A DNA stretch of 39,789 nucleotides from a virus: positions 1 to 39,789 of the IMG/VR virus record IMGVR_UViG_3300020281_000053. One strand, given 5' to 3'. The translations under genes and the position numbers were made by a program. Shown one piece after another: positions 27,292 through 30,077 of the stretch. Every line of letters starts with the position of its first letter. The stretch's first letter is position 1. The notes below the pieces were generated by a model, which was not told where the DNA came from, ran no database searches, and saw only the letters and a program-made list of their open reading frames with translations.

Positions 27292-28015
27292 AGCACAAGA
27301 GATCCGTCTCTCCAAAAAGACTATTGGTTTCCTAAAGAATTTTAGTGAGATTAATAAGTCGATTGTAATTAAAGCACTGGATAAAACTCTTGCAACAATG
27401 GCGGTTAATAAGAATATTCTTGCATTTTCTTCTTGCTCAGAAGAGTTTCCAGAGGATATTCCCATCTATGATCTTCCATTATTTGTGAAGACTTGCTCTA
27501 TGTTTGAGCAACCACATCTAGTATTTCTAGGAAAGAATAAAGTCTATATTGCAGACAAAGCAACCAAGGGTAAAGCGACTTATATGAAGTCTGACCCTGA
27601 TATCATTGTGCAACCTCCAAAAACTTACGACCCTAATCTTCCTGAGAAGGTTGTAAACTTTGAGTTGACTATGAAGAATTTAAAACTTCTTCGTGAAGCA
27701 GCATACAACTTTGGTGTGACTGATTTCTGTGTCAATTCTTTCCAAGGAGAGTTGTCTATTTCTGTTAGAGATAAAAAGACTGAATCTAGTCATGTATTCT
27801 CAGTCCCTGTAGACAAAGTAATCTGGGAAGCAGAATTCTGGGGCACTACACCTACTCATGAGCGTAACTTCTGTTACTGCCTTAAGATGGAAAACCTTAA
27901 GATTCTTGATGGCACATATCATGTGTGTATTTCAGACAAGAATGTAATTAATTTCAACTCTTTATCTGAGTCATCACTTAATTACTTCATCGCTCTGGAG
28001 CCTAATCAAGACTAA
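27284..28015 (+). CDS. gp45: Sliding clamp gp45
   Basis: DNA polymerase processivity clamp (trimeric ring) and activator of late promoters with gp55. 243 residues from ATG 27284 (T4: 228); an in-frame TTG at 27269 is less likely. The family start EIRLSKKTIGFLKNFSEINKSIVIKA and IYDLPLFVKTCSMFEQPHLVF are typical, as is NFELTMKNLKLLREAAYNFGVTDF (~125-150). Overlaps the upstream gene by 8 bases and gp44 by TAATG. Confidence 0.95.
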   Translation: MNEAQEIRLSKKTIGFLKNFSEINKSIVIKALDKTLATMAVNKNILAFSSCSEEFPEDIPIYDLPLFVKTCSMFEQPHLVFLGKNKVYIADKATKGKATYMKSDPDIIVQPPKTYDPNLPEKVVNFELTMKNLKLLREAAYNFGVTDFCVNSFQGELSISVRDKKTESSHVFSVPVDKVIWEAEFWGTTPTHERNFCYCLKMENLKILDGTYHVCISDKNVINFNSLSESSLNYFIALEPNQD

Positions 28016-28956
28016 TGAGTAAACTGTTTCTTTGGGTTGAAAAGTATCGTCCAAGGACAGTTTCTGATTGCATCCTAACAGATGTCAACCAAGCAGTTTT
28101 CCAAGGATATGTAGATAATGGAGAGATTCCTAATCTACTTTTGCCTGGCACTGCAGGTATCGGTAAAACTACCCTTGCCAAGGCACTGTGTGAAGAAATT
28201 GGTGCTGACTATTATCTAATCAATGGATCTGATGAAGGTCGTTACTTAGATACAGTCCGCACAAAGTGTAAGTCCTTTGCATCATCCTCGTCTCTTGTGG
28301 GAGGTAAACACAAGGTCGTAATTATTGATGAGGCAGACAATTCTACACCCGATGTGCAGTTACTATTGCGTGCTGTCATCGAGGAGTTTCAGAATAACTG
28401 TCGTTTTATTTTCACATGTAACTATATCAACAAGATCATTGACCCTATCAAGAGTCGATGCTCTGTTGTAGATATGTCTACTAAGGGAAAGAATCGTGCC
28501 ATCCTCGCTTCTAATTTTCATAAGCGATGCATGGAGATTCTTACTAAAGAAAATATTGAATACGATGCAAAAGTATTAGCAGAGGTAGTCGGTAAGTATT
28601 TCCCTGACTTTCGTCGCACACTCAATGAGTTGCAGGCATATTCCTCTACAGGTAAGATCGATGTTGGTATCTTAGGAAGGTCTAACAGTCAAAATATTGA
28701 CAAGTTAATTAATTTCCTAAAGAATAAAGAGTTTACTAACATGCGTAAGTGGGTTGTCACTAATATGGACAACGATTATAAGGTATTGTTTCGTGCTATA
28801 TACGATAAATTGTATGATTATCTCCAACCTCAATCAATACCTGAGGCGGTGCTCATCATAGGTGAGTATCAATACAAGGCAGCATTCGTTGCTGACATGG
28901 AGATCAACTCTGTTGCATTCTTAACTGAAATTATGATGAGGTGTGAATTCAAATAA
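28015..28956 (+). CDS. gp44: Clamp loader large subunit gp44
   Basis: AAA+ ATPase that with gp62 opens and loads the gp45 clamp. 313 residues (T4: 319). WVEKYRPRTVSDCIL at the start, Walker A GTAGIGKT (45-52), Walker B IIDEADN (D105-D108), the SRC arginine-finger motif in DPIKSRCSVVDM (~143-154). Normally next to gp62, but here separated from it by a ~3.9-kb accessory block. Confidence 0.96.
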   Translation: MSKLFLWVEKYRPRTVSDCILTDVNQAVFQGYVDNGEIPNLLLPGTAGIGKTTLAKALCEEIGADYYLINGSDEGRYLDTVRTKCKSFASSSSLVGGKHKVVIIDEADNSTPDVQLLLRAVIEEFQNNCRFIFTCNYINKIIDPIKSRCSVVDMSTKGKNRAILASNFHKRCMEILTKENIEYDAKVLAEVVGKYFPDFRRTLNELQAYSSTGKIDVGILGRSNSQNIDKLINFLKNKEFTNMRKWVVTNMDNDYKVLFRAIYDKLYDYLQPQSIPEAVLIIGEYQYKAAFVADMEINSVAFLTEIMMRCEFK

Positions 28957-28972
28957 ATGTCAAGATTTTGAG

Positions 28973-29005
28973 CATGACATGTCATGACATGGCACGACAT
29001 GGCAC
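28973..29005 (+). repeat. Tandem decamer repeats with internal palindromes
   Basis: Three consecutive decamers CATGACATGT, CATGACATGG and CACGACATGG plus CAC of a fourth. The first junction makes the perfect 12-base palindrome ATGACATGTCAT. They occupy the gap after gp44, 8 bases upstream of a sigma70 -35 box, a natural operator position. Confidence 0.85.
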
Positions 29006-29012
29006 AAAACCC

Positions 29013-29041
29013 TTGTTATACCAATAGGTTTGTGATATTAT
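29013..29041 (+). promoter_or_regulatory. Extended -10 sigma70 promoter for the accessory block
   Basis: TTGTTA (29013-29018), a 17-base spacer and TATTAT (29036-29041) preceded by TGA, an extended -10. Start expected near 29048, 17 bases before ATG 29065. Decamer repeats lie just upstream. Confidence 0.7.
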
Positions 29042-29064
29042 TATCATAGTTACATAAAATTCAA

Positions 29065-29922
29065 ATGAAACAAATTATTACTCTTCCTTTCAACCCACTC
29101 TCAAAAACGAAAGACGCAAAGGTCACAGCAATGACACCTGCCATGGCAAGAATAATTCTTACACATCATAACGGTGATAATCGTCAATTATTCCCATCGC
29201 AGGTCAATAAGATTGCTCAATCTGTTAAAACTTCTGGGTGGTTATTTGATGGTAATCCAATCGCTTTTAATTACCAAGGTAACTTAACAGAGGGTCAACA
29301 TAGATTGAAATTTATTGCCACGCAAGATGATGGTGAGTATGATGTTGTGGTTGTTGTTGGAGTAGAACCTGATACTTTCTCTAATGCTGCTCTTGGAAAA
29401 GCTCGTCGTCCTCATGATGAAATTTATAGAAAAGATAAGACCGCTAAGGCTTCACAAACTGCTGCTTTGGGAGATATAATGAAACGTAGAAAAGGAGAGA
29501 GGTTTACTATCAATACTGCTGTCAGAAATTGGGAGGATTGGAAAGATGAAATTATAAAAGGAGAAGATCTTTGCAATACATTTTTAAGTGGGACTTCAGA
29601 TTACTCATCACAAACTAAAACTATTGTTGCGTGGGCATCTCTTTGTGTGAATGCTAAGTATGCTGATCAAGTAGAAGCATTTTTAGACCTTCTCAAGGAT
29701 CAAGTAAATGAAAAAGGTGTTACTCGTTTGACAAAAGATTTTTATGAAACCTTTAAAGATCTTTCATGGAATATGGGTAACGAACCTAAACTCACACTCA
29801 TGTATAATATGCTTTGCCTTGCTATGGATAGGTTTTTAGAGAGACCTGACGGAGCAATCGCTCTTAATTATAGTATTACCAACTCTACCAATAGTAAATG
29901 TTACCGTAAATTCCTAGCATGA
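29065..29922 (+). CDS. ParB-like (GQHRL-motif) protein
   Basis: A 285-residue protein whose N-terminal domain reads SGWLFDGNPIAFNYQGNLTEGQHRLKFIA (~57-85), with the (D/E)GQHR box (E76-R80) of the ParB/sulfiredoxin-like superfamily; GQHR corresponds to the GERR box which in ParB contacts CTP. The next part, VVGVEPDTFSNAALGKARRPHDE, and a helical C-terminal half fit the phage/plasmid family of this type, whose function is unknown. Its own sigma70 promoter and upstream palindromic repeats suggest early, possibly autoregulated expression. It starts the accessory block between gp44 and gp62. There is no Shine-Dalgarno sequence. Confidence 0.75.
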   Translation: MKQIITLPFNPLSKTKDAKVTAMTPAMARIILTHHNGDNRQLFPSQVNKIAQSVKTSGWLFDGNPIAFNYQGNLTEGQHRLKFIATQDDGEYDVVVVVGVEPDTFSNAALGKARRPHDEIYRKDKTAKASQTAALGDIMKRRKGERFTINTAVRNWEDWKDEIIKGEDLCNTFLSGTSDYSSQTKTIVAWASLCVNAKYADQVEAFLDLLKDQVNEKGVTRLTKDFYETFKDLSWNMGNEPKLTLMYNMLCLAMDRFLERPDGAIALNYSITNSTNSKCYRKFLA

Positions 29923-30077
29923 TCACTCCAAGGACACCTAGAAGATGGAAATCATCTAAAAGAGTTTTAATTTTCCTAGCAGTTACAGGTCTGGCAAGAG
30001 TATTGATCTTTGCTGTCCCTGTAGTGGGTGTTTGGTTTGGTGTAACTCAGACAGAAGAGGTGCGTAATGAAAACTGA
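29919..30077 (+). CDS. 52-residue membrane protein
   Basis: ATG 29919 overlaps the stop of the ParB-like gene (ATGA) and the frame ends at 30077, 11 bases into the next gene. A basic N-terminus (TPRTPRRWKSSKR) precedes a transmembrane helix (VLIFLAVTGLARVLIFAVPVVGVWFGV), a positive-inside arrangement. Coupling at both ends supports translation. Unknown role. Confidence 0.6.
   Translation: MITPRTPRRWKSSKRVLIFLAVTGLARVLIFAVPVVGVWFGVTQTEEVRNEN

Follow-up and report, generated by a model that had tools for sequence, protein, structure and literature searches.

Three tandem repeats stand directly in front of a promoter and a ParB-like gene in a T4-like marine cyanophage, raising the question of whether they form an operator for that gene and how the arrangement came about. 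The DNA analysed (the window, a 39,789-base fragment of the phage) has Prochlorococcus phage P-TIM40 (Kyanoviridae) as its nearest named genome, with about 79-85% identity in large aligned blocks. The gene, here called the accessory gene, is flanked by replication and metabolic genes and lies between gp44, coding for a sliding-clamp loader subunit, and a small ORF (Table 1). Searches within the genome for repeats, and the view of neighbouring genes for a ParA partner, covered this 39.8-kb window, which is one part of the phage genome.

Table 1. Features around the 3' end of gp44 (window coordinates)
Feature	Position	Strand	Basis or remark
gp44, sliding-clamp loader subunit	28015..28956	+	phrog_168, E 2e-127; Pfam Gp44_lid
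Left copy of flanking direct repeat, AATTCAAATAA	28946..28956	+	repeat search; relatives without insert
112-bp insertion (103 unique bases plus one 9-bp copy of AATTCAAAT)	28955..29066	+	comparison with relatives
Degenerate CATGN tract (decamers and palindromes)	about 28972-29005	.	copy search, TRF, self-match
-35-like hexamer TTGTTA	29013..29018	+	TTGTCA in L061
Extended -10, TGATATTAT	29033..29041	+	unchanged in L061
Right copy of flanking direct repeat, AATTCAAATGA	29058..29068	+	repeat search; holds start codon of next gene
Accessory gene, 285 aa	29065..29922	+	phrog_5931; predicted ParB/sulfiredoxin-like N-terminal domain
Small ORF, homologue of PTIM40_155	29919..30077	+	start codon overlaps accessory-gene stop (ATGA)

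An optional gene and an insertion at the gp44 seam

Across viral contigs, the ATGA seam that follows gp44 (loci L070-L149; window 28945-28956) is succeeded by many different genes. When 80 other gp44 3' ends were gathered with one DNA pattern, the gp44 stop overlapped the next start by ATGA in all of them (80/80) and the next genes were very diverse, suggesting that the seam is a site of frequent gene exchange at which the overlap is kept each time. Comparison of phages that are 97-99% identical around the seam showed the accessory gene to be optional there: L113 and L092 have neither the gene nor the insert (their alignment with the window passes straight from 28954 to 29919, and L113 is 99.2% identical to the window upstream and 97.1% downstream), and the gene is also absent from P-TIM40. 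Two further relatives, L003 and L018, lack the insert (the alignment jumps from 28957 to 29058); the accessory gene of L003 is 92% identical to that of the window in protein, and L018 matches the window at 99.3% identity across 3,005 bp upstream. The gene also comes straight after gp44 in L004-L010 and L012, which hold more distant homologues at this position. Only two sequences carry the insert, namely the window and L061, a contig from a separately named IMG/VR record that shares 98.9% identity with the window across 6,113 bp and stops 7 nt into the accessory gene.

Both the repeats and the promoter lie within this insert, which occurs in some members of a single marine cyanophage species. 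It is flanked by an imperfect 11-bp direct repeat, AATTCAAATRA, which restores both the gp44 stop (a TAA from the left copy in the window) and the next start, so that both reading frames are intact. Deletion between the two direct repeats would leave an identical empty sequence; parsimony favours insertion, because the distant homologues also follow gp44 directly. Terminal inverted repeats of the MITE-like kind were not evident by eye at the insert ends, and no second copy was found in the window, P-TIM40 or named phages, L061 being the only match among viral contigs. A P-TIM40 match to the insert (E 0.018) was rejected, as it is located inside a coding gene. A structured RNA was likewise rejected: folding of the full insert was no stronger than that of shuffles (z -0.76), and Rfam returned no family, its best hit (E 0.78) reaching 12.4 bits where 65 is the cut-off.

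Window and L061 differ at 4 of 108 positions in the insert (28963, 29017, 29027 and 29032) and at 7 of 942 in gp44. None of the four substitutions falls in the repeat tract or the extended -10, and one shifts the -35 towards consensus (TTGTTA to TTGTCA). With 33 repeat bases and four changes in the insert, the unchanged tract cannot tell neutral drift from constraint.

The repeat tract and the promoter

The three tandem 10-bp repeats reported in the preliminary description are real, and no short tandem repeat in the window is stronger. Three 13-nt copies begin at 28972, 28982 and 28992 (spacing 10 and 10 nt), TRF returned a period of 10 (3.3 copies, 28972-29004) and also a period of 5 (5.8 copies of CATGA), and the lag-10 self-match of the tract (21/23 positions) was the highest for all lags 5-30 in the 39.8-kb window, against a maximum of 18 at any lag in 30 dinucleotide shuffles of the whole window. 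The accompanying palindrome, described as 12 bp long, is also present, its length having been understated: there are two overlapping perfect palindromes of 14 bp (28973-28986 and 28978-28991). Split into fives, the tract reads CATGA CATGT CATGA CATGG CACGA CATGG CAC, so that decamers and palindromes are one simple-sequence feature and not two independent signals; since CATG equals its own reverse complement, CATGN arrays readily produce palindromes, which need no separate cause. When bacterial genomes were scanned for the triple decamer, 38 stretches were returned, none with a marine picocyanobacterium in its title, and the majority were (CATGA)n arrays in unrelated bacteria, which counted in favour of a simple repeat. 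Taken as a whole, the repeats resemble a degenerate simple repeat with a five-base unit rather than a conserved protein-binding site.

The proposal that the tract serves as an operator or parS-like site for the gene's own product, with repeats conserved upstream of homologues, was not supported. Repeats of the CATGN kind were absent upstream of every homologue tested outside the window/L061 lineage (the upstream sequence of L003 being short), even at 92% protein identity or 99.3% upstream identity, and CATGACATG, for which the preliminary description suggested a search elsewhere, showed no excess in the window outside the tract. Motifs of host regulators were also considered. HLR1, the site of the OmpR-type regulator RpaB, consists of two (G/T)TTACA(T/A)(T/A) direct repeats 2 nt apart (PMC9241938); it was rejected, the best score in the insert (11/16) being equalled by 97% of shuffles, and Pho, NtcA and LexA motifs were not found in the insert or were at chance level.

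The extended -10 sigma70 promoter of the preliminary description is present just downstream of the repeats, the tract ending about 8 nt upstream of the -35. Its layout, TTGTTA-N17-TATTAT (29013-29041) with TGA preceding the -10, makes a sigma70-like promoter plausible and would place the transcription start near 29048. The promoter scored 9/12 plus TG in the window and 10/12 plus TG in L061, and a plus-strand site this good occurred in 9% of insert shuffles for the window (P 0.09) and in 1.1% for the L061 copy (P 0.011); the window match alone is thus modest evidence, not exceptional, and the L061 match is better. The late-promoter motif (TATAAAT) was not found in the insert. No terminator-like site was found on its plus strand, so gp44 read-through into the accessory gene probably continues. 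According to a review (PMC2984593), transcription of the early genes of T4-like cyanophages is believed to rely on unmodified host RNA polymerase acting at sigma70-like promoters. The early promoters of S-PM2 and Syn9 have the same -35/-10 layout, whereas the insert promoter appears newly placed between gp44 and the accessory gene and limited to some members of a single phage group.

The accessory gene product

Several weak lines point to a predicted ParB/sulfiredoxin-like N-terminal domain, in agreement with the ParB-like product named at the outset. The product matched phrog_620 ('ParB-like partition protein') weakly (E 0.003), Foldseek matched it to phage proteins of the 'ParB-like nuclease' and helix-turn-helix types (E about 1e-6 to 1e-5, with 2e-6 for a phage ParB-like protein), and nearly all listed structural matches of the N-domain model were ParB/Srx-type chains, with ParB, Noc, sulfiredoxin and free serine kinase dominating (Z <=4.9, model mean pLDDT 60). 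Confidence in both models of the product is low (mean pLDDT 66 and 60). There was no Pfam match, ParB included, a sequence search of solved structures and NCBIfam gave nothing usable, and none of the defence-system families matched. In its predicted N-terminal fold and xQHR-like motif region the product resembles the 'ParB-like nuclease domain protein' of Mycobacterium phage Baee and a hypothetical protein of Prochlorococcus phage P-HS2; unlike ParB/sulfiredoxin-like phage proteins, it has neither a Pfam ParB match nor a recognised helix-turn-helix, and its C-terminal half has no assigned fold. The ParB/sulfiredoxin superfamily includes enzymes that do not bind DNA, such as sulfiredoxin and free serine kinase, and membership therefore does not establish DNA binding by the product. 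GxxR is the nucleotide-binding motif of CTP-binding ParBs, and a motif of this type is not conserved across the subfamily, the window having EGQHR, most homologues ESQHR and both L017 and L018 EKQHG.

Between the window (29065-29922) and L003 (96-950), the accessory gene showed dN 0.045 and dS 0.055 (dN/dS about 0.8), compared with dN/dS of 0.08-0.16 for three downstream genes. The difference hints at rapid or relaxed evolution, although dS could also have been lowered by recombination. In L018 (3001-3474) the gene looks mosaic, with window-like ends and an L017-like middle, which could be due to recombination or to chimeric assembly at the contig end.

Origin and role of the insert

The insert appears ordinary in kind and, on our best reading, comparable to the PeSL elements (promoter-early stem-loops) of T4-type phages, reportedly described by Arbiol in 2010 and Comeau in 2014. 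As in PeSLs, a small intergenic cassette carries an inverted-repeat tract before a candidate sigma70-like promoter, at a site of accessory-gene presence or absence in a T4-like phage. Unlike PeSLs, it has a weak hairpin (-10.4 kcal/mol, z -1.95) that is followed by CCCTTG and no terminator T-run, it was found in a single copy (no second one in the 39.8-kb window or P-TIM40), and it lies in the replication gene cluster, not in a hypervariable region. As the sequence of the insert lacks the stem-loop terminator feature, we do not file it as a PeSL; as a cassette that brings a promoter to a gene seam, it may still act in a similar way. A strict PeSL cassette, whose hairpin stops gp44 read-through, whose promoter starts the next gene and whose recombination with other cassettes moves genes, is quite unlikely: the order of stem-loop and promoter at a gene presence/absence site agrees with it, as do a similarly arranged element that recurs in the hypervariable region of the near relative P-TIM40 and a passage in PMC4503421 citing PeSLs as mediators of shuffling in T4-like phages, but the weakness of the hairpin, the missing T-run and the lack of a second insert copy in the window, P-TIM40 or viral contigs other than L061 do not.

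The recurring intergenic element of P-TIM40 (KP211958; L184/L185) has a PeSL-like layout consisting of GTGACAGTTnnATTAGTGKCACA, about 8 nt, CACTACC and then a TATAAT-like -10. It is located at about 50.3, 52.5, 53.3, 53.8 and 54.3 kb, where it precedes several small hypervariable-region genes, and elements of this type also occur in viral contigs L204-L207, L212-L214, L217 and L219; none was found in the window.

The tract might instead be a real operator, with a dimeric regulator (from the phage or the host, or the ParB-like product) binding the near-palindromic decamers, which would lie on one DNA face at about -41 to -76 from the inferred start, and activating or repressing the promoter. 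The prominence of the repeat in the window, its closeness to the -35, its identity in L061 and the predicted ParB/Srx-like product fit such an operator, but we consider it not very likely, since the repeats are conserved upstream of no homologue outside the lineage, the subfamily does not keep the GxxR-type motif of CTP-binding ParBs, HLR1, Pho, NtcA and LexA motifs do not fit, and the palindromes follow from CATG units. That the CATGN tract arrived with the insert as a functional regulatory site, bringing the accessory gene a new and perhaps self-regulating control absent in relatives, seems quite unlikely; if true, a single event at a coupled gene seam would have supplied both operator and promoter. 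It is also unlikely that the insert is a non-functional indel, neutral filler from illegitimate recombination with a chance promoter match in AT-rich DNA. The frequency of equally good sites among shuffles of the window insert and the greater window-L061 divergence in the insert than in gp44 would be expected of such filler; the better -35 combined with the same extended -10 in L061, and the survival of the insert in two diverged genomes whose genes are closely packed, would not.

We regard it as fairly probable that the 112 bp are a regulatory, promoter-bearing insertion that separates the accessory gene from gp44, and that their CATGN tract is no conserved operator of the product. Judged from the sequence, the insert probably gives the optional ParB-like gene an early promoter of its own. 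As the comparison shows, gp44 usually overlaps the next gene by ATGA, the optional phrog_5931 gene is present or absent at this point, and in the window lineage a further 112 bp lie between gp44 and the phrog_5931 gene with both frames intact. The sigma70-type promoter of the insert would be read by host RNA polymerase early in infection, and the accessory gene could thereby be transcribed independently of gp44 and freed from translational coupling. The CATGN tract, presumably a slippage-type simple repeat that came with the insert or expanded in it, would at most tune the promoter, as a spacer or weak hairpin; repeats and a palindrome beside a promoter need not signify an operator. Among close phages, one seam thus occurs in three states, empty, with the gene coupled to gp44, and with the gene separated and probably provided with its own promoter, which helps to show how an accessory gene of a phage may come to be expressed independently.
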